Assembly: GCA_020912385.1 (NCBI GenBank)
Contig: CP087208.1
Coordinates: 62,001-126,000, forward strand
Origin: Neofusicoccum parvum
Lineage: Eukaryota; Ascomycota; Dothideomycetes; Botryosphaeriales; Botryosphaeriaceae
Direction: 5' to 3'
DNA: 64,000 nt
Below the pieces are notes generated by a model. The model did no database searches, was not told the origin of the DNA, and saw nothing but the letters and a program-made list of their open reading frames with translations. A program made the position numbers and the translations under genes. How positions within the stretch are numbered: the stretch's first letter is position 1; each line of letters begins with the position of its first letter. Below are positions 6,597 through 58,152 of the stretch, one piece after another.

Positions 6597-8708
6597 ATGG
6601 CCGACACCACAAACGGCACCAGCGGCGCTCTACCGGCGGTTTTAACTTCTGCTGAGGAATTTGTTTCCCAAGAGTACGACTACGTGATCATTGGCGGCGG
6701 CACGGCAGGTCTTGTGATTGCTGCACGCCTGACAGAGAACCCCGATGTCACCGTCGGTGTCCTTGAAGCCGGGAAGAACAAGCTCGACGACCCGATGGTC
6801 GATATCCCGGCACTGTTCAAACAGATGCTCGGCAACCCCGAGTATGACTGGATGCTCACCACCGCACCGCAGGCTGGCACCAAGGGTCTTGTCCATCAGA
6901 TGCCGCGCGGCAAAGTGCTGGGAGGCTCAAGTGGTATCAACTACATGGGGTATGGAGAGATTTTCTGCCTGCCTGCCATGAACATGACGAAACTGACCCT
7001 GGGTCCGCAGGTACGTGCGTGGCTCGGACCAGGACTACGATGATTGGGCAATTTTGGCAGACGACGCGGCATGGTCGGCGGCCAACATGAAGAAGTACAT
7101 CAAGAAGCACCAGACGCTGGACCCGATTGACGACGCGATTACCAACCGCTCCGCCATGTCGTTCGTCCCAGCGAATCACGGCACCAGCGGACCAATCCAT
7201 ACGTCCTTCAACGACTCCCGCCTGTCCCTCGAGGACGAGTGGATCCTCGCTTGTGATGCCGCTGCGGACCTTGATGGCAAGAAGCCTATTGACCCCTGGG
7301 GCGGCGAACATATCGGCTTCTACAACGGCCTTGGCTCCATCTACCGCGTCGGCCCGCACCGAGGGAAAAGGAGTTATGCCACGCGCAGCTACCTGGAGCC
7401 CAATGCCCAGCGCCCCAACCTCAAGGTGCTATGCGAGGCACCTGTCACCTCCATCGTGATTGAGACTGCGGGGGAGGCTGATGTGCTCGCCACTGGCGCG
7501 CGGTTCACGCACCGCAGTGCCACGCACATTGTGAGGGCACGCCGCGAGGTCATACTGAGCGCCGGTGCAATTCACTCCCCGCAGCTGCTGGAGCTGTCTG
7601 GCATCGGCGATCCGGCGGTGCTGCGGGCTGCGGGCGTGGACGTCACGGTCCAACTACCCAGTGTTGGCAACAACTACCAGGATCACATCGCAACGGCGCT
7701 GGCTTATGAGCTGGTGGACGGCGAAAAGTCATTGGATAACATCTGGGACCCCCAGCAGATGGCGCTGGCACAGCATGCACTGGCAGAGAATCAAGGCGGT
7801 CCGCTGACTTCGTCGCTCAGCGGGCAGGGCTTCTTGGCGTACAAGAGGATTACAGACTTACTACACGAGCCGGAGGAGTACTCTAGGACGCTGGAGAATG
7901 TGAGGAAGACCCAGGAGAGTCCGGACACAACGCCGTTCCAGAAGAGGCAGTTGGAGTTGGTCATGGCTCACCTCAAAGACGACGAGTCGGCGAACCTGCA
8001 GTACCTATTCTTCCCTCTGACCGCGGGCCTCACGGATGATACGATCGGAGACCAGACAAATTTGTTCCCGGCTGCGGATCCGAAGAAGCCAAACCAGATG
8101 GCTACGGTGTCGGCGCTTCAGTATCCCGTGTCGCGCGGTTCGGTGCACATTCAAAGCGCAGGTGAGCGTCCGGGCGCGCACAATCAGCTCCTTCCGTTGC
8201 TTCTCTATCCCTTCAGCCCCGCTCGCCTTAAACTGATGATTCCCGGCAGACCCAAGCAAGCCGCCTGTCATTGACCCTGCCTACCTTTCCCACCCTGCCG
8301 ACGTTGCCGTCATGGCTGCTGGCATCAAGTTTGCGGATCGCATCCACAAAACGGGTCCAATCGGGCCAAAGGCCACCAAGCGACTTCGCCCAGCGGAGAG
8401 CGTTGACATCAATGACACGGCGACGGCCGAGGAGACGGTGCGCGACTTCACCATCGGCGAGTACCACAGCTGCGGCTCCTGCGCCATGGGCGAAACCGTC
8501 GACTCTCACCTCAGAGTATACGGCGTCAAAAGGCTCAGGGTTGCAGATGCGAGGTGAGAAATCAGCCAAGCATGGATTGTGCCTACTTCAGACTTTTCTG
8601 ACGCTCTCCGGCAGTATCTTCCCGAACCATGTGTCTGGAAACATCCAGTCCTCAGTTTATGCGATGGCGGAGCATGCCGCGGATATCATCAAGCAGGATC
8701 AGGTCTGA
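6597..8708 (+). CDS. GMC family FAD-dependent oxidoreductase
   Basis: Flavoenzyme of the glucose-methanol-choline family, which oxidises alcohols or sugars with FAD. Four exons (6597-6949, 7011-8161, 8250-8553, 8615-8708) join in phase to 633 aa, typical for the family. The N-terminal Rossmann motif is YVIIGGGTAGLVIAARL (about residues 30-46), followed by LEAGKNK and the GMC signature PRGKVLGGSSGINYMGY. HSPQLLELSGIG is the second GMC signature. The C-terminal active-site region reads EYHSCGSCAMG with the proton-accepting His, then SIFPNHVSGNIQSSVYAMAE with the second active-site His/Asn position. No signal peptide is present, so it is probably intracellular. Its stop lies only 160 bp from the stop of the convergent P450, so the two may belong to one small metabolic pair; that link is inference. 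Confidence 0.95.
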
Positions 8709-11529: not shown

Positions 11530-12839
11530 ATGGCAATTGAAAGCCTCGCATCGTTGGCATATGCAGTCATCTCTGTCGCATTCGGTATCGGGACAGCCTC
11601 ATTCTTCATTCGACTGTACTGCCGGGCGATCCTCCTGAAGTCGTTTGGCTGGGACGATGCTATCTCTACGTTTCTCTTGGTATAGAGCAGCTGCGCAGAC
11701 GTTCTTTTATCCCTCTGTCTCTGACGCTAATGTCTTCAGTTCGTAAACTCAATGCAGCAGGCAATCTTGTATATGTTCCTGCACTATGGCTGTGGAACGT
11801 AAGTGTCATCCGGCGGTTGGTTGAGGTAGTTGCAAGACTCAGGGTTACCAGGCATGCGACAACGCTCTCGACGTACCAGCTCGAGCGGATCAATACTGTT
11901 AGTCCAAACCTTCACCGTCTTTCAATCAGTAGTAACAGTCCTCATCAGTGGTTATTCGTCGAGGAAATTTTCTACATGTTCACCCACTGGACGATCAAGC
12001 AAGCATTTTTGCTTTTCTACCTTCGACTATCACCGAGTGTTGCCTATCGGTACTGCGTCATCGGAGCGATGGTGGTGAATACCGTCTTCACAATCATCAA
12101 CTGGCTGCTTGCTTTTCTTCAATGCACCCCCTTTGATGCCATCTTCCATCCCGCATTGCATCCCGACGCGAATTGCATTGACAAAAACATCCTGCTCATG
12201 GGGCCTTCAGTGTTGGTGAGTGTATGCAGCCATCCCCTACAGACGAACTCTGCTCCACCATTCTGTGCATTGGAGAGCCAACCACACTTCCTACAGAACA
12301 TCATCACCGATGTGATTATCCTCGCCCTTCCAATTCCAACGGTCTGGAGCCTGCAAATGCCGATGCGCCGGAAGATTGCCGTGATCGCCGTTGTCAGCTT
12401 CGGCGCCTCTGCCGTCATTGTCGCAATGTGCCGCTTCATCGTCCTCCGAGAGCTGGGCACCACGGAGGATCCGTCATACACACTTGGAAAGATGATAGTC
12501 GTTGCGGCACTTGAGATCCAGTTCGCCATCATTGCTGTCAATCTTCCCTCCATGAAAGTGCTTTGGACACGCATGACTGGAGGGTCGAGTGCAGGGCAGA
12601 GCGAGCCGATTTCAAACAGCAAGGGCTACAAACTTTCTTCCATGGAGCGTCACGACGGGAGCAAGTCTCACTGGAGCAAGCGTAGCAAGTCAGGTATTGT
12701 TGCAGATAGCATCACGCACCACATCGGCGGCATTACTGCAGCGGATTCAGAGGAAGAGCTGTGGCATAATGGACACCAGAACAGGATCCACGTTACCCGG
12801 ACGGTTGAAGTTGCAGCAGACGATTCAGGGTCCAAATAG
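11530..12839 (+). CDS. PTH11-like integral membrane protein (fungal rhodopsin-fold/SAT5 family)
   Basis: Seven-helix plasma-membrane protein of the large fungal 'rhodopsin domain' family related to PTH11 receptors. Five exons (11530-11679, 11740-11798, 11852-11897, 11949-12215, 12297-12839) give 354 aa. Exon joins were chosen so that family blocks stay in frame: RLYCRAILLKSFGWDDAIS after helix 1, YMFLHYGCGTH, the EEIFYMFTHWTIKQAFLLFYLR helix, ANCIDKNILLM, and NIITDVIILALPIPTVWSLQ. A conserved MPMRRKIAVIAVVSFG follows. The last ~100 residues are a Ser/Lys-rich cytosolic tail. The CFEM domain of some PTH11 members is absent. Such proteins often flank metabolite clusters; a sensing role is inferred from the family only. 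Small exons 2-3 make the middle part less certain. Confidence 0.85.
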
Positions 12840-37279: not shown

Positions 37280-38386
37280 CTACCCGCTCCTTCTTGCGCT
37301 GATGTCGCCCATTGGAAACAGGAATGACGGCAGGCCCTGGTCCCTGCAGATTGCATTGCCCATGCTGTAGTAGCCCAGCATCCCCGCCACAAATGCGAAC
37401 GACCCGGCCGCCTTCTTCACCGCAGCCGCCGTGTCTGCCCGCCCGTCGGCTGCCGCAAAGTAGCTGGCTCCCAGCAGGCAGAGGTAGATCTCGAGAGCCG
37501 TGTACGTCGCGACTGTCACGCCATTCCTGCCGTGCTCGTTAGGATCAGATCCGGCAATGTCTGCGTTGTCGTACGCACGTGGTCAGGGAGCCCAGCAGGA
37601 AAAATGTATTAAACACCGTCCACACTGTGCCAAGGTCAGCAACGGCGCGCTGCTGCTGCGGGCCGTCTCTACGCACGAACACAGAAGAATCCCAGCGCAT
37701 TGTTGTATCCCGTTTTGTCGTCGCCAAAGGTAGAAGAAACGCCGAACAACGGCGTCAGAATGGCCCCAAACCCGCCATAGAACATGCCTGGAGACCGCTG
37801 TTAGCAGCAGACCACTGCCCGGCAGCACGGCGTGGAGCGTTACCGTATGCACTAAAAACCGTATAGTTGTAAGAGTTGCCGCGCACCAGCTCCCACTGCG
37901 CCGAGAGAACCATGCCGATGCCTGCAATGAAGAAGAAATTGCCAATGAAGGCGTTGGCCATCGTCAATCCGCGCCACTCCACCAGCGCGCAAGAAAGGGT
38001 CGTGATGGTCGTGGCAAACGCCCCGAGCGCGAACGCTGTCTGGTGGCGCGTCAGTCCGGAGTGTTCAGTGTGCAGCGGAGGACCGTACAGGGCTGCCCAG
38101 CGACCTGCCATTCGTCCAGGTACGCTCGTTACGTCTTTCCCACTTGGTCGCGCTCGTCGCCATATGTTGAGTCGACGAATCCATTCCAGCTCTCGGCGTC
38201 GTTCTCGGGCGGCGTGAACTTCTTGACGCCCCAATGGATGGCGACGGTGCATACAGCGATCCAAAGAAGCACGTAGCCCTGCTCCAGCAGCGGCCCTAAG
38301 TACTCCGCCCGGTTTGCGTACAGGACAGACGCGGCACACACCAGCCGGCCGGTCATGGGGTCGTCGACAGGGCACGAGGAAACCAT
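37280..38386 (-). CDS. GPR1/FUN34/YaaH family membrane protein (acetate-transporter type)
   Basis: Multi-pass membrane protein of the AceTr family, which moves acetate/succinate or ammonium-related solutes. Five exons (38144-38386, 37844-38039, 37683-37787, 37579-37624, 37280-37526) join in phase to 278 aa. Family landmarks are ALGAFATTITTLSCALVEWRG, GMVLSAQWELVRGNSYNYT, FSAYGMFYGGFGAIL, ALGFFLWTVFNTFFLLGSL and ALEIYLCLLGASYFAAADG, covering six helices. The first exon adds an N-terminal segment with an extra hydrophobic stretch (LLEQGYVLLWIAVCTVAIHW) not usual in the family. It is joined through a less typical GTGGGA donor, so exon 1 could belong to another transcript. The short exon 4 (46 bp) was placed by phase and branch point. 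Confidence 0.75.
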
Positions 38387-40063
38387 TGCGTAAGAGTCCG
38401 AGAGAGAGAAGCACAGGTGGATGGAACGGTCCGCGGATGCAGCAGGACGAGCCCGCGGTCGGCCAGCAGCTCTTAAGTACTCGGCATCCCGGATCGGCAT
38501 GATCGGCCTGATCGTAAGTTTTCGGCGCGAGCGTGTCGGCATCTTCTCCTGAAACCGCCGCACATCACCCCACACTGTGGAGCTGATGCACCAACACGTG
38601 CAGCCGCAGCTGATTGTGTGCCACGGTGAGCTCTTCGGCAAGACCCTTTCCCGGCCCACAAGTCAAATGCGTGCCATAGTCACCCCATCTCAGGCTGCCG
38701 CTTGCCTGTGGTGGTCTGGGCCTCTTCTCAAATTTTTCCCCGGCGCTTCCTTCGTACGGTTCTCTCCTGCTCCACCCAACTTTGCTCATTCTCTCATTCG
38801 GCGTTCGCAGAGGATCGCAATTGGGGAGACGGCCTCGACTGCCATCCAGTCTCCAGACGAGCTGACCAACGACCGGCCACTCTGCAGAGCAGGTCCGCAG
38901 GACGGGTCCGCGATCTACCCCCACGCTAAACCTACCTGGCGCTTTTGCCCGCCTGCGACAGTGGCCCGCATAGGGCATCTCCGACAGCCTTACGAGGATG
39001 GCATGTATCCAGGTAACTCACACATCAGTATCATCTATTTCCAGCAGGCGATATTCCGGCGAGAAGGACCTTAATCCACGAACCCCTGCCCCGCCATGTA
39101 CCGTGCAGTCGGTCTTCGGATTCCGGAGGCCAATTAGTCTTCACGCACGCTCATCCGAGGGCTTGTTCCCACGTGGATTCCATGCGTGACGTGGCCTTGC
39201 GGATGTTGCAGCTTCCACTGCTCTGGTGTTCCGCTGGTAGAATTGGCAGCTGCGGCGAGCTACTTAACGCCATGCGCGACGAGATGCTGCTTGCGATGAA
39301 CATCTTAATGCTATGACTCGTAGCACACATCATAGATCGCCACGTTTCCGGGCCGGACCCTCTAGGTTGTGCCGACTTCTTATATATGCGGGCAGAGTCA
39401 TTTTCCGCTAGAAACAATTGTTCCAAGCCACGCATCTGTTCAGGCCGTTCCAGGCACCCGGGATCTCCTATCTCAGCACAGAGTGTTCAAGCCGTCGCTC
39501 GTCAGTCTTGCAGCAAGTGTCCGTCTCATGTCCCATACTTCACCGAGCGTTTTTGCTGCTATCAGCCCGCAAACGCTGTCCTCGGAACTTCGGACTGATT
39601 CCGTGCTGCGATGCCCTCGTCTCCTGCTAAAAACCCTCTTTGTGCGGCTTTTACAAAGGTTCGCGCGATCGTTGCCGCTTTCCTGGTTTGGCTGTTGAGA
39701 TACCCCGGGCGCGGAAGCTATCGTACTCGCATTGCCCATTGCCAATCGATGGGTAACGAGTTCCTTATCTAAGCCTTGCAAGTGAGACTCTGCTACTTGG
39801 CGGAAGCGTTGGTTCTGGCTGTGGATTGGACGTCCACGCTTCTGGAATGCTTTAGCTCCATGCACCCTGAATCGCAAGGTTTGCAAAGTGCCACGCGAAA
39901 CACGCAGCGGGAGAAGCTCGTGGTCGGTCCGAATCGCAACTCTATTCTGCATGAACGAACCGATCACTTGTCGGGCTCGAGGCCCAATCTCTTCCCCTCA
40001 AGATGCCGTCTATATCTTCGGGGCAGCGGAGGAGAGATTCTTCCAGCTGTGGAAGCCGCAATC
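38387..40063. other. Intergenic
   Basis: Divergent upstream region of the YaaH-family gene and the cAMP-receptor-like gene. The largest frames (165 codons at 38577-39074 +, 164 codons at 39473-39967 -) show no motif or signal peptide and overlap one another's complements. No gene is supported. Confidence 0.4.
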
Positions 40064-41830: not shown

Positions 41831-42443
41831 TCAGCCTACAGTCGACAAAGTAGTTGTGGCTGTCGGCACGCCTTCACCGTTCCGCAAGATACCAGTTGAC
41901 GCGCACGTTGAGCTGACACACGGGTACGGATCTCCGCAGTCCGCGTCGTACGCGCAACTCCAGCCTGGACAGCCCCACACGCATACCGAGACCTGCGTGG
42001 TAGCAGAGTCGACGAAGGTGGTGAAGACGTGAAAGCTCTGGCCCGGCGGGGAGGTGATGGTGGACCTGAGGCTTGCTGCCAGCGACGAGTTCCTTTCGAG
42101 CTCAACGTCAGCGCAGCCGTCTCCTTGGAGTTTCGGAGCCCGAGCCAAGGGCGCTTACCTACCGAGATGAAGCGTCGGGCGCCGAAGCGGAGTCGGTGTT
42201 CAGGACGGTCGGGAGCACGCTCCCCAAAACGATGCCGATCAGAACAACAAGCCCGACCAGACCGGTCCACGCAAAGCATGTCCGGGACCGGACCGGCTTC
42301 CATGACACGACGCGAGAGTTGTGGTACTCGTAGTGGTCTCTGCGGTGGCCGTATTGAACTAGGTTTCCGATTCCGTCGATTGCGTTGCCGTGCCAGAGGT
42401 TCTGATTCGCCGAGGCCGTTGATCCTGAGTCGCTGAGGGGCAT
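41831..42443 (-). CDS. Single-pass membrane protein with Cys-rich C-terminal ectodomain
   Basis: Two exons (42163-42443 and 41831-42065) give 171 aa. The start at 42443 (MPLSDSGSTASANQN) was chosen over an in-frame ATG at 42494. A polar, Tyr/His/Arg-rich N terminus is followed by one strong helix (WTGLVGLVVLIGIVLGSVLP) and then a Ser/Thr-rich stem. The C-terminal part has seven Cys in about 45 residues (VCVWGCPGWSCAYDADCGDP, CVSSTC), suggesting a small disulfide-bonded extracellular module. The basic cluster before the helix (RSRTCF) predicts a type II orientation. The intron has a plausible donor (GTAGGT) and was ended at CCTCAG to keep phase; the exact acceptor is less certain. Family not recognised. 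Confidence 0.65.
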
Positions 42444-43268
42444 GGCGCTGGGGTGGAAGAGGAAAGCAGTGAGCCTTGAGAAATTCAAGGCCAAGGCGTA
42501 GCAAAGAAATCACTAGCGCTCGAGGCCACAAGGCTGTCGTTCCTTTTCGTTCCTTAGACACAAGTAATCCTAGGAGCCTTCGTGGGGCGGCTTAACGTTT
42601 GACAGCTTCCATCGTACTGTACTCTCTAAACTTGGTAAATGTAACCTCCCTTTCATGCAGCCCTGTTGAAAAGGCTTTTGGTTGATCAACCGCCCAGCGA
42701 GCCGTTCTGTATCCCGAAAGATTACCTTAACAACACCATGTGCAGTTGGTGTCCATTCATTAATTGGTGGATTTAATGTGGCATTCTCTGCTTACTCCTA
42801 TTTAACTTTCAGGCCACGAGGCAGACTACGGAAGATAGACACGTGGTGGTACAGGGACAAGGCGACTGCGGTGTAGGCTTGGGAGTGCATAATATGATTT
42901 GCGGTGTCTGTCACGGCCCTGCTGCTATTCGCCGGGATCTGCTGCAATATTCACGCAGGAACTCTCGGCACCGGATATCGTCATGCGATTGGTTCTGACT
43001 GCGAAGGCCGCATCTCAGCCTTATTGGAAAGGCCCCGCAGGATTCTGCAGCTGAGGATCCCGCGGCCCAAATCCAGACATCAAGCACTGTGTAGCGGGGC
43101 CAAAAACAGACAAAATGCGTCAGCTCAGCCCAAACATCCTACGAAGCCTCTTTCAACACACGGAAGATTCCCTGAGGCTTTTAATAACAATCAGCTAGGC
43201 CACGGCAGGGTCAGCAGGAAGGCTCATCCGGGCGCCCTCGCCGCTCGCCAGGCGATTGTCACCAGAAC
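42444..43268. other. Intergenic
   Basis: Divergent spacer between the Cys-rich membrane protein and the SesA-domain gene. No motif-bearing frame. Confidence 0.4.
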
Positions 43269-44206
43269 ATGTCTGGACTTGAGGTCCTGGGTGCGGTCGC
43301 TAGCGCCTCGCAAATTTCCTTCTACGTCTGCAACATTGTCGCCGCCGTGCAGGCAATACGGCGAGAGCTGCGAGAGGCTCCGCAGCGCATCCAACAACGG
43401 ACGAAGCATCTCTCTTTCCTTCTTTCCATCATCAACTCGATCCAGACCAACCAACTTTTCCACACGTCCGAAGTCGAGAACCATCTCAAGGATATCCAAG
43501 AACGCATCTACACACTCCGTCTTACGCTCGAGAGCAGCAACAAACCACTAAAGGACCAGTCTCTTCGGAAGGTCTGGCGAGCTCTAGAAACTCTCCGCGC
43601 CGAGACTCAGATATTGAAGAGTTTCGACGCACTCGAGAGTGAGAAAAGTAGCTTGCTCCTCTTCATCGCCGGAGCGTACGGGGCAAAACTGCACGAGGTT
43701 TATCAGCTGGCTGTGGACATCAAGATGGATCCGAGCAGCAGAAGAACGACCGAGACGCTTGTCCCAAAGCTGGAAGCTGAGGTTTGTTTTCCGCTGGTGT
43801 GCTCGAGTGCCACGGCTGATGGTCCAAATAGAAACACAACGCCGAAAATTCCCAGGCGCTGTGTGCTTTGAGGTCCCCGGCAACGAACACATCATTACCG
43901 TGCACCAGCCCTACCGAGGGAATCCATGGTAGGAACCAGGCCCCCACATTGCGAGACGAATCTGCTTCGAAGAGTGCCCATACAAGCACTGCATACACGA
44001 ACTTGTGGACGAACAACATGATCAAAGGGAATGGGAACAAGGTCACCAATGGCAACATTTCAAACGGCCACTCTGGTGTCCATCAACGGAGTCAGTGGCA
44101 AGGCAACGGTGTAGAAGGAGATGGCAATGAGGTAATCAACGGGAATGTGTTCGGGAAGACACAGATACTCAACAAGCTGGTGTTATTCTACAAAAAGTTT
44201 AGTTGA
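43269..44206 (+). CDS. SesA-domain protein with two C-terminal amyloid-motif-like repeats
   Basis: Two exons (43269-43781 and 43832-44206, phase-0 intron of 50 bp) give 295 aa. Residues 1 to about 140 match the SesA domain that caps fungal NACHT/NLR proteins and also occurs alone: MSGLEVLGAVASASQISFYV, REAPQRIQQRTKHLSFLLS, then a helical run to EKSSLLLFIAGAYGAKLHE. A Ser/Thr/Pro-rich linker follows. At about residues 232-250 and 262-279 lie two pseudo-repeats, NNMIKGNGNKVTNGNISNG and GNGVEGDGNEVINGNVFGK, with a shared GxGNxVxNGN pattern like the beta-solenoid amyloid motifs of HET-S-type signalling. By family knowledge this arrangement would link an NLR sensor to a cell-death effector; here no NLR lies in the window. 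SesA is well supported; the amyloid role is inference. Confidence 0.85.
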
Positions 44207-44306: not shown

Positions 44307-45483
44307 CTAGAAGGCCTGCTTAACAAGGTCTTCACTCAGTGCCCACAGCTTCTTCGCACTGTTGGCATCAGTGGCATGTGGAGCCGCGTCTATCAGGTGG
44401 CAGTCACTTAAGTAGATGCCCTTAAGTTCTGCGAAGTTCATCAATATCAATTTCCAGAAGGACTCTATTGGTCACTTACCACTCAGAGCGGGATCAATAG
44501 CAGCAACCAAGGTAGTTGATGCACCCTCTTCGATACTTGCCTTGGGTTTGTATTGACTCAACAACGCGCCGGTGGCTGCCATCGTCTTCGGATCCATGTT
44601 TCTCGACAGATCTGTGCCGATCACTTTCCACAGAGTAAGCCGAGTGTACAAGAGCGCGAGTATTCAGCAGGACTTACTCCCGGGATGAACGGCGTAAGAT
44701 ACCACGCCCTGCGCGGCCAGTCGCCTGTTCAGCTCCACCGAGAACAGGATGTTCGCCGTCTTACTCTGGCCGTACGCCACCATACCCGCGTATCCGTCGG
44801 CGTTAGGCTTGACCAGCTCATCAGGCCAGAGAGGGGGAAACACGCTCGATTCTTCTTCCGGAACGGGCTTGCCTTCCAAGTTGTAGTCATGGAAGCGGAC
44901 TGGAGACACTCGATGGCCCTCGCTGCTGAGGTTGATCACACGAGTGGCTCCGGGGGTGCTCTTCTTAGCCGCGGCCAGGAGGCGGTCGGTGAGCAGGTTG
45001 GTCAGGAGGAAATGGCCGATGTGGTTTCCGGCGAACTGACTCTCGATGCCCTCTGGAGACACCGACCGAGTGAACACCCAGAAGCCGGCGTTGTTGATCA
45101 GAATATCGAGGCGTGGGGCCAGGGTGTTGATCTCTTCGGCAGCACGCCGAACGGAGGCCTGAGACGTCAGGTCTACCAGGACAGACTTGACGTTCGCGTT
45201 TGGCTTGACAGCCTTGATGTCGGCGATCACCTCATCAAGCTTGGACTGGGTGCGGGAAATCAGGAGGAGAAGCTCGGGGTCATGTTTGGCGAAAGCCACC
45301 GCGGTCGCACCACCAAGACCAGTCCGGGCGACGCCGGTGATGGCCACTGTGGAAACGCGTCAAGTTTGTTTCTCGGCATGTCTTCAGCGACGACTTACCG
45401 ATGCGGCCTTTGATCTGGCTCGCAAAGGCCTCGGCCACTTCGGCGGCCTTCGTGTCGTGTCCAAATTCGGCGCGGGTAGTCAT
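44307..45483 (-). CDS. Short-chain dehydrogenase/reductase (retinol dehydrogenase-like)
   Basis: Classical-type SDR, four exons (45399-45483, 44678-45346, 44480-44623, 44307-44428), 339 aa. The cofactor motif is ITGVARTGLGGATAVAF, a variant with one extra residue between the glycines that many fungal members share. NNAG is followed by the catalytic Ser in VINLSSEGHR and YGQSKTAN with Tyr and Lys. HPGMIGTDLSRNM follows the exon 2-3 join. The C terminus (GIYLSDCHLIDAAPHAT, then SEDLVKQAF) is complete. The layout resembles retinol-dehydrogenase/WWOX-like reductases of fungi. No membrane anchor is evident. Cofactor preference and substrate cannot be assigned. A second in-frame ATG at 45498 would add five residues. 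Confidence 0.93.
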
Positions 45484-45937
45484 TTTGGCTGTGTTCAAGT
45501 TTCTAGTGGAATCAGATTGCTGGTGTAGGCGTGAGTGGCTGAGTGCGGATGTCTCGATGGCTGGTTCGTCAGTCCCGACGGGCCAGCGCTGTATTTGTAG
45601 TTTTGCTTCGTTCTTGAATCGACCAGCATTCTGTTAGGCGCTGCCTCTCTATGAATTTCTAAGCATGTGTTTGGAGTCCTGGGTTTCCCCGGAGGTCAAG
45701 TCTGCGGTGCGTCATGGCGGACTGAGGCGAGGCGGGCAACTCCGGCAGCGAGGGAAGGCCAGCTTCGGGCCCCAGAGGCGGCTTCCTTCGGGCCCCAGTG
45801 GCGGCTGCCTTCGGGCCCGCATGCACGGCCAACTTCGGCCGCCCGTCTGCGCCAGCCCTCACCTCGCAACACCGTCTGCGCACCTCCTCCAGGCACACCC
45901 CTCCCGGCCGTGCTCGACAGCCGAAGCCGCGCCTCAG
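45484..45937. other. Divergent intergenic region with GGGCCC repeats
   Basis: Shared upstream region of the SDR (-) and the Zn2Cys6 regulator (+). Around 45760-45820 there are three imperfect copies of a TTCGGGCCC(CAG)-containing unit about 24 bp apart. The regulator's frame is open upstream to 45665, but the repeat-derived sequence there is low-complexity, so the start at 45938 is preferred. Confidence 0.45.
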
Positions 45938-48031
45938 ATGACAGATCCTCAGGCCCCAGACAGCGCTGGCGCAGCGGCCGCCCTGCCGCGTCGTAACTAC
46001 CAAGCCTGTCTGGAGTGCAAGCGGCACAAGGTCAAGTGCAACATGGGCAGCTCGGAAAGTCCTCAGCCGCCATGCATCAGGTGCCGCCGCGCCCAGCTCC
46101 AGTGCGTGTTCGGCCCTGTCCGGAGGCTCAGATCGCGCGTGAGGCGGAAGAACGGTGCAGGTGTGCCGCCCACTGCCGCGGCCGCTCCCATTCCTCCGCC
46201 CGTCGACGCTCGCGAAGATGATTTGCGAGCCGAGAGCAGAAGTCCCCCGCATGCCGAAGCTCAGGCGCACAGCGAGACTCATCACGACGTCCGCGAAGGA
46301 TCTCCTGATGCGGCCGAGGCCACGGTGCCGTCGACCGATGATGCCCGCGCCGCAGCGCCCGGATATAACCTTTCTTCGTGGAACCATTTCAATATTTGCC
46401 GAGACGGATACCTCACTCCTGCAGAGGCCGATCATCTTGTCGACCACTTTTTCCGATGGATGCACCCCGTTTTCCCACTCGTCGACCAGCAATACAGTTC
46501 CAGTGCGAATCGAGAGCAGTTGATCACACGGGAACCTTTCCTGTGCGCCACTATCCTTGCCATTTGTTCGAGATGCTCGTGGATCCATGCGTATCCTGCG
46601 TCCCCAAGAGCCATTGAGGCTCACGGCATGTTATACCGACACCTGCAGTCGGAGATTTCACGGTGCATATGGGCTCCTGACCGACGCCGCAACGCCAGAG
46701 CTCTGGGGCTCATCGAGGGTATTGTGCTTCTTGTTGAGTGGCACACCCGCTCTTTGGATCTCGTATCTCCCCCGATGGATATATCGGGTCCTTACGCCCT
46801 CGGAAGCTATTCGTTCAACCCTTGCCCTAGCTCTACATTGCCGGATGTGTCAAACTTCGAGTCCGAGGTGCTCAATGCCTCTGAGACAATCAAGTCCCTG
46901 CTCACAGCCACATGGCGCCTTCTCGGCATTGCTATAACCCTCTCCGATGAGATTGGCCTGCATCAGGTCATCACCAAAGCCGGCGAGAGGCAAATGCAGG
47001 ACGGCACCGATGGGCCACGCCGGGCGCGCGTACGAGACTTTTTAGTCACCCTCGTTTGGGAACATTCATTCCGACTCGGCCGCAAATGCGTGCTTGTTCT
47101 TCCACCAACCCCGCCAGAGCCCGCACAACGAGAGCCGGCCAGCCAGTTGAGCGCGCTTTTGGACAGCAGGACTGAACTGTACCGGCTCCTCCAACTCGTT
47201 GAGAGCACAGTGTATTCTACGCCCCGTCACACCGCAGACATCATCACCTCCGGCCGATACGTTTCCATCATCAGCGACTTCTCAGGCTACCTCGCCGCCT
47301 GGAGAAGCCGCTTCGAGCATCTCAAGGGGCCTGGTCCCTTGAGGAAACACCTCGAAATCATCTGGCATAGCGCACGAACCTTCCTTAACTGCGTTGCGGT
47401 GCAGGCCTTTGCTATCCGTTGCGCGACCGCGGGGCGGAGGCCGTCCTCCAGAGGCGCGGGCGCGGGAGCAGCGAGCAATACCCAGAGCTTCACGCAGTCT
47501 GCACAGCACTATCAGGACCTCAGCCTGGCTGAGGACGTGACCAAAGACGCCGAACAAGTCCTCGAGATCGCTCTGGCGCTGCATCGTGAAGGCTATCTCC
47601 GCCACGCCCCCATGAACCTCATGTACCACATCATGGCCGCGTCGATGCTTCTTCTGAAACTGCAGCTTCTGCCGGTCCGCATCAGTGGCAAGAGGGGCGC
47701 CGGAGACCCGATGGCCCCTCTGAAACAGATCGCCAAGGCTCTGGAAGAAGCCGGCATCGACGATGTCCACGTGTGTTGCCGGTTTGCATCTTGCTTCAAG
47801 AGGCTGATGCGCAAGATTGAGGCAGACCGCGAGCAGCCTCGGCCAACAGTCGAAGCTTCAGACCCAGGCCACCAAGGCCTTGAGTCCGTCTCCGGGATCC
47901 TATGGCCCAGCGGGGATCCTGACGCTGCAGCCGACGCCACGGCAACGGGATTGCCGTTTGGCACTTCTCTCTGCGAGGGACTCTTCTCGCTGGAGCAAGA
48001 TGGCGAATGGCCGCGCTGGTTGGCTTTCTGA
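45938..48031 (+). CDS. Zn2Cys6 transcription factor with fungal-specific domain
   Basis: Intronless regulator of 697 aa. The start MTDPQAPDSAG lies 22 residues before a canonical binuclear zinc cluster, CLECKRHKVKC followed by CIRCRRAQLQC, with basic residues at the expected DNA-contact positions (KRHK). A Pro/Ala/Glu-rich linker follows. A fungal_trans-type middle-homology region begins near GYLTPAEADHLVDHFFRWMH and continues through FPLVDQQYSS, a LCATILAICSR helix and ATWRLLGIAITLSDEIGLHQ to VTLVWEHSFRLGRK. The C-terminal part is helical. No adjacent catabolic cluster is obvious, although the divergent SDR shares its 450-bp upstream region and could be its target; that is inference from position only. 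Confidence 0.93.
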   Translation: MTDPQAPDSAGAAAALPRRNYQACLECKRHKVKCNMGSSESPQPPCIRCRRAQLQCVFGPVRRLRSRVRRKNGAGVPPTAAAAPIPPPVDAREDDLRAESRSPPHAEAQAHSETHHDVREGSPDAAEATVPSTDDARAAAPGYNLSSWNHFNICRDGYLTPAEADHLVDHFFRWMHPVFPLVDQQYSSSANREQLITREPFLCATILAICSRCSWIHAYPASPRAIEAHGMLYRHLQSEISRCIWAPDRRRNARALGLIEGIVLLVEWHTRSLDLVSPPMDISGPYALGSYSFNPCPSSTLPDVSNFESEVLNASETIKSLLTATWRLLGIAITLSDEIGLHQVITKAGERQMQDGTDGPRRARVRDFLVTLVWEHSFRLGRKCVLVLPPTPPEPAQREPASQLSALLDSRTELYRLLQLVESTVYSTPRHTADIITSGRYVSIISDFSGYLAAWRSRFEHLKGPGPLRKHLEIIWHSARTFLNCVAVQAFAIRCATAGRRPSSRGAGAGAASNTQSFTQSAQHYQDLSLAEDVTKDAEQVLEIALALHREGYLRHAPMNLMYHIMAASMLLLKLQLLPVRISGKRGAGDPMAPLKQIAKALEEAGIDDVHVCCRFASCFKRLMRKIEADREQPRPTVEASDPGHQGLESVSGILWPSGDPDAAADATATGLPFGTSLCEGLFSLEQDGEWPRWLAF

Positions 48032-55762: not shown

Positions 55763-56485
55763 AGCGTCATGCGGTTAGGCTTGCGACGATATGTCCCAAA
55801 AGGCAGCATGCCGCCGCGAAGCTCCGCTGCACTACTGTGCCAGCATGCGGAGTAACGCCCGCCGGTCACACGCTAGCAGACCGGACCCGAGATATTGGCG
55901 GAGATATCCATGTATAGACGCCCGCCGCCTGTTAATAGAAGCCTTGCATTAGAGCGAGGCGCAGCCGCATAGAGGGGACTTGAGACGTGAATGCTTTGGC
56001 GAGTCTCGTTCCTGATCTCTCGTATATAATAAAGACGGTCGGCACTTGTCGGCCCTTCTCGCAGCCGTATGCAACTCGCCTTACCCCTCTATCTCCTTCA
56101 GAATGTTTGAGCGCCTTGACGCCGTTTGTCCCTCGGCCACACTTCCCGGCCCAGACATGCCGGCCCTCGACGTCGCTTAGAACGGGCAGCGCGGGATCGT
56201 CTCCAATTTTACCTCCTTAACACCGATTCGCTCATGGTTCATCTCGTCTCTTCCGCCAAAACCGGCATGGCGCGACGTATATCACTGACGCGTGCGCGTC
56301 CAACCATGGCGCTAGCCGCCGCGTGCAGCGGGACATGCCAGTGATAGGGCGGCCGGGTTTATTCAGTACGATGCTCCGCGGGCCGCTTCTGCAGGAACTA
56401 TATATCTTGACGGAAATATGCTTGTTCCAGAAGAAGCATATTCGCGGTTTTCTTGTCGACCTCGCGCGCCCTCCATCCGACGGCC
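55763..56485. other. Intergenic between ERG2 and lysophospholipase
   Basis: Terminator region of ERG2 and promoter of the lysophospholipase. A CTATATATCTTG element at about 56398-56409 is a possible TATA box 77-88 bp before the chosen ATG. No coding frame is supported. Confidence 0.4.
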
Positions 56486-58152
56486 ATGGCGTCACTCAAC
56501 CACCTCGGCGCCGCGGCGCTCTTCATCTCCAGCGCGCTCGCCGCCTCCGCATATGGTCCCGTCGACGCGACCTGTCCGACCACTGCCGTGGTGCGCGCCT
56601 CGGCCGATGGCGTCAACTCCGATGAAGCCGCCTACGTTGCCGCGCGCAAGCCAATTGCGCAAGAGGCTCTCCTGGCATGGCTCACCAAGATCGACCCGGC
56701 CTACGCCGCTCTCGACAGCTCCAGCCTCCCCACCTTGGGGCTGACCACCAGCGGGGGCGGGTACCGCAGCATGCTAACGGGAGGCGGCGTGGTCCAGGGC
56801 CTAGACAAGCGCGACAGTAACGTGTCGACGTCTGGCCTGTACCAGGCCTTCACGTACCAGGCTGGACTGTCGGGCGGTTCGTGGCTGCTGTCGTCGCTGG
56901 CCGGCAACGACTGGCCGACTGTGTCGTCGCTTCGGGACGGGCTGTGGTCAGCCGGCCTGCAGGAGACATTGTTCCTGTCCGACACGTCCGATGGCTCCAT
57001 CGACATCGTCGCCGACCTGGCGGCCAAGGCCGCTGCTGGCTTCGACGTGACGCTGACTGACCCGTGGGGCCGCTCGATATCGAACCAGCTCCTGTACGGC
57101 GACGACGGCGGTGTCAACAAGACGCTCTCCGGCGTGACCGCCAACTCGCAGTACGCATCCGCCGCGGTGCCGTTCCCCATCATCACGGCGCTGGGTGTCG
57201 AGACGTGGGAGGGCCAGTGTGACCCCGAGCGCAACGCCACGCAGTACGAGTTCACCCCGTACGAATTCGGTTCCTGGGACTCTGGGGTCGCCGCCTTCAC
57301 CCCAACTAAATACCTAGGATCCTCCTACTCCGCCGGTGCCACCACCACTGACGGCTGCGTCACGGGATTCGACAACCTGGGCTTCATCTTCGGCACCTCC
57401 TCTTCTCTTTTCAACAGCGTCTGCGTGCCCCTCTACGTCAACCAGACGGAGCTTGGCGTGTACCTCTCCGAATTTGTGCTCAAGCTGCACGAGCTGGCCA
57501 CGCAGGATCTCTTCGCCATGTACCCCAATCCGTTCTACGAGAACCCCTCCTCCTCGCTCGTGTCCGCCCAGGAGAACCTGCACCTCGTCGACGGCGGCCT
57601 GTCCGACCAGAACAACCCGATCTGGCCGCTGCTGCACCGCGCCGACCTCGACGTGCTCCTCGTCAACGACAACAGCGCCGACACGACGGACAACTGGCCC
57701 AACGGCACCGAGATCTACAACACCTGGACGCAGGCGCAGGCGCAGGGCCTGGCCGACCGCATGCCCGCCATCCCCGACGTCGCCACCTTCGTCGCCGAGG
57801 GCCTGAACCAGCGGCCCGCCTTCTTCGGCTGCAACGCCACCGACGCCCTGACCATCGTGTACGTGCCGAACTACAACTTCACGTACGACAGTAACGTCGC
57901 GACGCTGAAGCTGCAGTACACTCCGGCGGAGACGAGTGGTGAGTTTTTAAAGGCTTTCTTTTTCCCCCTCATGAGTAAAAGCAGCAGCGCTAACGCGGCC
58001 GGACAGGCATGATCGCAAACGGCGTGCAAGTCGCGTCGCAGGGCGGCGACGCCCAGTGGGGCGCGTGTCTGGCGTGCGGCATCATGGCGAAGAGCGGCGC
58101 GGCGCTGCCCGACGGGTGCGCGGCGTGTTTGGAAGAGTACTGCTACAACTAA
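56486..58152 (+). CDS. Secreted lysophospholipase/phospholipase B
   Basis: Secreted acyl hydrolase of the fungal phospholipase B (cPLA2-like) family that removes fatty acids from lysophospholipids. Two exons (56486-57938 and 58007-58152) give 532 aa, somewhat shorter than the ~600 of many members. The start gives a signal peptide (MASLNHLGAAALFISSALAA); an upstream in-frame ATG at 56453 is less suitable. The oxyanion-hole block TTSGGGYRSMLTGGG, the nucleophile elbow QAGLSGGSWLLSSLAG (GLSGGS) and the catalytic Asp in LVDGGLSDQNNPIWPLL are all intact. PDV and NFTYDS near the end and six Cys in the last exon (WGACLACGIM, GCAACLEEYC) fit the family. No GPI-anchor signal is seen. Many N-glycosylation sequons. 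Confidence 0.95.

Follow-up and report, generated by a model that had tools for sequence, protein, structure and literature searches.

The window analysed here is a stretch of 64,000 nucleotides of Neofusicoccum parvum on contig C3; the genome-wide searches covered 43,992,428 bases on 18 contigs. At 43269-44206 (+) the window encodes a protein of 295 amino acids, here called the effector, in two exons with one intron of 50 bp (Table 1). This gene model had been put forward in a preliminary description of the locus and is matched by BFW01_g12900 of Lasiodiplodia theobromae (P0001), which has the identical exon junction and differs at only 2 of 295 aligned residues. P0001 carries Ile at the position of the start Met of the effector; its annotation begins at a start further upstream. 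Neofusicoccum ribis P0002 is identical to the effector in 165/171 and 51/54 residues; its gene model omits most of exon 2, and with it R1 at least in part. Between the helical domain and the repeats lies the Ser/Thr-rich linker described before, with 16 Ser/Thr in 58 residues.

Table 1 Features of the window and of the C17 pair. Positions are those of the window unless a contig is named.
Feature	Position	Strand	Basis or remark
Effector exon 1: SesA-like helical domain, 171 residues	43269..43781	+	gene model
Effector intron, 50 bp, GTTTGT...ATAG	43782..43831	+	same junction in public protein P0001
Effector exon 2: Ser/Thr-rich linker, two repeats, aromatic tail, stop	43832..44206	+	gene model
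Repeat R1, residues 230-248	44006..44062	+	alignment, shuffles
Repeat R2, residues 260-279	44096..44155	+	alignment, shuffles
Divergent intergenic region, 825 bp	42444..43268	.	between both gene starts
Membrane-protein exon 1: N-terminal single motif and membrane segment	42163..42443	-	
Single motif (R0-like), residues 15-32	42348..42401	-	alignment, shuffles
Predicted membrane segment, residues 56-81	42201..42278	-	Kyte-Doolittle 19-window maximum 2.57
Membrane-protein predicted intron, 70 bp, GTAGGT...AAAG	42093..42162	-	acceptor uncertain
Membrane-protein exon 2: Ser/Thr-rich stalk and Cys-rich C-terminus	41831..42092	-	
Cys-rich module C.WGCPGWSC.....C...YPC....C, residues 131-157	41903..41983	-	common to C18 membrane protein
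GMC oxidoreductase	6997-8271	+	window neighbour
Fungal rhodopsin-domain protein	11541-12836	+	window neighbour
GPR1/FUN34/YaaH	37758-38564	-	window neighbour
Short-chain dehydrogenase	44664-45359	-	window neighbour
Zn2Cys6 regulator	45638-48028	+	window neighbour
Lysophospholipase	56411-58009	+	window neighbour
C17 NLR	C17:211820	+	single motif at residue 12
C17 SesA-like L010, about 216.4 kb	C17:215782-216637	-	repeats HRAM-type, Q at position 18

Divergently from the effector, on the opposite strand and 825 bases away, lies a gene for a predicted single-pass membrane protein (42443-41831, -) with a single copy of the motif, which the preliminary description had overlooked. The spliced product has 180 amino acids; two alternative acceptors would give 171-173. 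Its ORF (42162-42509) was the top match to the effector repeats when compared with the 998 other window ORFs of at least 40 amino acids, albeit narrowly, with a score of 51 against 49 and 46 for the next; z values of 5-7 arise by chance among the 3976 ORFs of the NACHT loci treated below. It is also one of the 23 of 999 window ORFs with a strongly hydrophobic segment. The protein is known here from one genome, and no public relative was found at E ≤ 0.01 among 3919 candidates.

The N-terminal domain of the effector had been called a SesA domain. Likeness to SesA was found, membership of the Pfam family was not: neither the effector nor its relatives on C18 and C13 had PF17107 in their match lists, which ran to E 10, and the effector domain has no credible Pfam family at all (best E 0.14). 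Within the fetched loci, an HMM of the effector family reached E 3.7e-4 with the SesA domain of one NLR (L002); at the other three Pfam-SesA loci the matches were weak (0.0099-0.28) and two of them were partly in other frames. The domain is therefore likely, though not proven, to be a remote SesA relative. AlphaFold predicted it to be all-helical (pLDDT 63.3), and the matches in a fold search were generic bundles; none of those listed was to HeLo or MLKL, and the structure search was uninformative as to a HeLo fold. Entries consulted in the PDB contributed nothing of use. A profile of six relatives retrieved 19 proteins among 7998 scored candidates. The six of the 19 that are named come from Lasiodiplodia, Diplodia and Neofusicoccum, all of them Botryosphaeriaceae.

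The C-terminal repeats R1 and R2 both contain GxGNxVxNGN, as noted before, and are separated by 11 residues, close to the earlier figure of about 12. They align with a local score of 61, which was equalled by none of 20,000 shuffles. Absence of the repeats from close homologues had been named as an outcome that would speak against an amyloid motif; instead, relatives in other genera retain the pair. Five of the 19 relatives (P0001, P0002, P0004, P0005 and P0006) include the motif region, of which P0002 has R2 and a portion of R1; for the remaining 14 the annotation stops near the end of exon 1, so they have no bearing on the presence of the motif either way. In six comparisons of four proteins, identity was 61-70% in the domain, 31-47% in the linker and 58-82% in the repeat pair, a pattern from which the repeat pair is judged to be under constraint. 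A short SesA-like protein without NLR that ends in a repeat pair has the layout of an amyloid-signalling effector, as had been suggested.

The proposed assignment of the repeats to the HET-S type was not supported. PMC4518210 describes HRAM motifs as pseudo-repeats that stand in pairs at the C-terminus of HeLo, HeLo-like or sesA proteins, with a loop of usually 6-18 residues, and the effector has this layout, with two repeats and an 11-residue loop. The HRAM signature was scored at eight positions (hydrophobic at 5, 8, 10, 16 and 18, K/R at 15, G at 19, N/Q/H at 3), at which R1, R2 and L008 reached at most 4/8 in any register against 6-7/8 for three repeats of the genome's own HRAM-type pair on C17. 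HET-s_218-289 (PF11558) gave no match to the effector up to E 10, which is weak evidence against HRAM because only 38 of 155 HRAM proteins match this family according to PMC4518210. A genome search with PF11558 found nothing, yet its controls were equally silent. NACHT_sigma, a family of the Pfam library, was likewise not among the matches up to E 10. Pfam and signature scoring thus left the labels HRAM, sigma and Pfam RHIM unsupported for these repeats. Charge complementarity between the stacked repeats (nine opposite and six like pairs) was not significant, 971 of 5000 shuffles doing as well, and was dropped as amyloid support; the structure that AlphaFold predicted for the repeats (pLDDT 40.7) was unusable.

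A second head-to-head pair was found on C18. Here a relative of the effector with a C-terminal repeat pair (244072-244968) is divergent from a membrane-protein gene 914 bp away, which encodes 201 amino acids with the same order of parts as in the window and has an intron GTAAGT...TTAG. This divergent ORF ranked first against the repeats of the C18 effector among 308 others, with 66 and the next at 41. The Cys-rich module is common to the C18 and window membrane proteins (E 6.1e-5 and 1.9e-5). In a search of the whole genome with the C18 membrane protein, the best match outside both membrane-protein genes was the motif of its own effector, at an E of only 0.92, and a profile of the shared repeats missed the membrane motifs of the window and C18 (E 41-110). 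Reverse-transcriptase-like ORFs, recognised by eye, flank the C18 pair at 241262-243031 (+) and 249639-251630 (-).

On C13, the region 860000-880000 (L045 and L046) holds two further SesA-like effector relatives at 867658 and 872601, each with a C-terminal repeat pair. The codon pattern for Q-x-N-G-(N/D) has 87 exact matches genome-wide (51 for the reversed-pattern control), nine of which fall within 11.5 kb of C13, with at most two in every other 15-kb stretch. Seven ORFs of this cluster carry a double motif (862435+, 865861-, 868329+, 870959-, 873278+, 874548- and 876502+), with repeats of the form W..N......Q(I/V/L)NG. Those at 868329 and 873278 form the second exons of the SesA-like genes, and the one at 874548-875600 (-) belongs to a degraded SesA-like copy with broken frames in which the double-motif exon is intact. 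The remaining four gave neither a SesA-like match nor a Pfam match at or over the cut-off; one of these proteins without recognised N-terminal domain is proline-rich. Single-motif exons at 864899 and 869702 join exons with membrane segments; no Cys-rich module was seen in these membrane proteins. A third membrane candidate at 877228-877797 (-), with a weak motif exon (E 1.4) and no start codon seen, was not counted.

Membrane proteins with a single motif and SesA-like proteins with a double motif thus occur together at three loci, and their motifs agree best within each locus. When membrane motifs were compared with effector repeats of the same locus, 2 of 2000 shuffles reached the observed score in the window, 0 of 2000 on C18 and 0-1 of 2000 in four pairs on C13. 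Between loci the number was 66-827 of 2000, except for the C18 membrane protein with the window effector (2 of 2000), so that the match does not fully separate the two head-to-head pairs. These two pairs look like a duplicated unit. With only six possible arrangements, a permutation of the loci does not amount to a test on its own.

Taken together, we consider it just about probable that the window encodes a HET-S-like amyloid signalling system in which a transmembrane protein stands in the place of the NLR and is paired head-to-head with its effector. What the sequence shows is both gene models, the motif they have in common, its pairing at three loci and the conserved repeat pair of the effector; the amyloid fold, an N-in/C-out topology, the direction of signalling, cell death and ligand sensing are inferred. 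The charges flanking the membrane segment are +3 before and -1 (window) or 0 (C18) after it, with hydropathy maxima of 2.57 and 2.73; in C13TM1 the charges are +3 and +2. In such a system an extracellular cue would cluster the membrane protein via its Cys-rich module, and the clustered N-terminal motifs in the cytosol would nucleate a cross-beta fold. The signal would then pass to the effector as this fold templates R1 and R2, the helical domain would be released to attack the membrane, and the cell would be killed or walled off, as NWD2/HET-S does with an NLR as sensor. The wider proposal, that a family of fungal single-pass membrane receptors uses amyloid templating, and no NLR, to trigger SesA-like death effectors, with a motif family outside HRAM and with the pairs and the C13 cluster as self-contained, locus-specific units, we advance more tentatively, as a possibility that falls somewhat short of even.

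The preliminary description had stated that the window holds no NLR, in agreement with our NACHT and NB-ARC searches, and had placed a matching NLR elsewhere in the genome. Activation of the effector by such an NLR, with the membrane protein as a separate member or a modulator, appears improbable to us. The fungal amyloid-signalling sensors in the parts of the literature covered were all NLRs, and at least 58 NACHT and 13 NB-ARC matches were counted in the genome, along with one ordinary SesA/NLR pair. An adjacent NLR with a single motif copy counts among the marks of HRAM, and neither NACHT nor NB-ARC matched anywhere in the window; this mark is not strictly defining, because 98 of 155 HRAM cases had such an NLR, clustering being common but not systematic (PMC4518210). 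Nevertheless, the score of the membrane partner was reached with any of the four effectors by none of 3976 ORFs; they came from 50 stretches at 30 distinct NACHT loci (20 represented twice), the part of the 58 to which this profile and alignment scan was confined. Searching by exact codon patterns, an approach that would overlook even the single motif of the window, gave no hit in the 5 kb upstream of the 58 NACHT matches and one hit 2.1 kb downstream on C2. The nearest NACHT match is about 466 kb away on C3 and about 566 kb away on C13, and none is listed on C18, where NB-ARC matches begin at 613 kb. By the same scan, the repeat region of L010 on C17 found its best match, against 4044 other ORFs of the NLR loci and L010, in the N-terminus of the neighbouring NLR, the second-ranked match being the same stretch in another locus; the motifs of this pair have no Pfam motif match. 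The method therefore detects an NLR pair where one exists, and in the loci scanned it found none for the window family. The adjoining membrane protein fits the partner role better than an NLR elsewhere.

The shared motif could also be a non-amyloid contact, an Asn/Gly-rich turn with which the membrane protein would tether the effector at the membrane, keep it in store there or inhibit it. We regard this as unlikely, though less so than an NLR partner. The motif lacks the HRAM signature and significant charge pairing, and decoy or inhibitor membrane proteins occur in the insect IMD pathway (PMC9496462); two copies in the effector and one in the partner, locus-matched variants and adjacent genes are, however, the layout reported for HRAM pairs. 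It is very improbable that the membrane-protein frame arose by chance or is a remnant, with the effector as an orphan or a gene in decay. The membrane-protein model is absent from public annotation sets and its profile score is weak, P0001 lacks the start Met, and one SesA-like copy on C13 is degraded, but the independent C18 gene has the same order of parts, the Cys-rich module, a standard intron and the head-to-head position, and two further membrane-protein genes are present on C13.

The favoured pairing of membrane protein and effector resembles HET-S/NWD2 and the HRAM pairs (PMC4518210, PMC3321046) in the short effector with a C-terminal repeat pair and a loop within 6-18 residues, the adjacent and often divergent partner with a single N-terminal copy, and the variants that match within a pair. 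It differs in that the sensor would be a membrane protein instead of an NLR and in that the repeats lack the HRAM signature positions. The C17 pair shares the SesA-like protein with a related domain and C-terminal repeats, but its motifs are HRAM-type (6-7/8) and the single motif is borne by an NLR. By analogy, the nearest working parallel may be PGRP-LC/IMD of Drosophila; PGRP-LC spans the membrane. There, a receptor ectodomain is combined with a cytosolic amyloid motif that seeds a motif-bearing downstream protein (PMC9496462). The two systems have no known sequence relation, and in Drosophila the motif is a cryptic RHIM and IMD an adaptor to NF-kappaB, not a helical effector. Bacterial BASS motifs with BELL domains (PMC7889193) likewise combine a helical effector, a C-terminal amyloid motif and an adjacent partner gene; their partners are NLRs, and the likeness drawn here is one of layout. 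Further background is given in PMC5485727, PMC9815663, PMC12881547, PMC10197012 and PMC12261475. The literature searched, bioRxiv and most subscription journals aside, yielded no paper on membrane proteins of fungi that bear an amyloid-signalling motif.

In the parts of the literature covered, fungal amyloid signalling is read out from NLRs inside the cell. If the proposed working is true, cues from outside would be linked straight to a death switch of the HET-S type, in parallel to PGRP-LC in insects, and this would account for SesA-like effectors that are NLR-less ("orphan").
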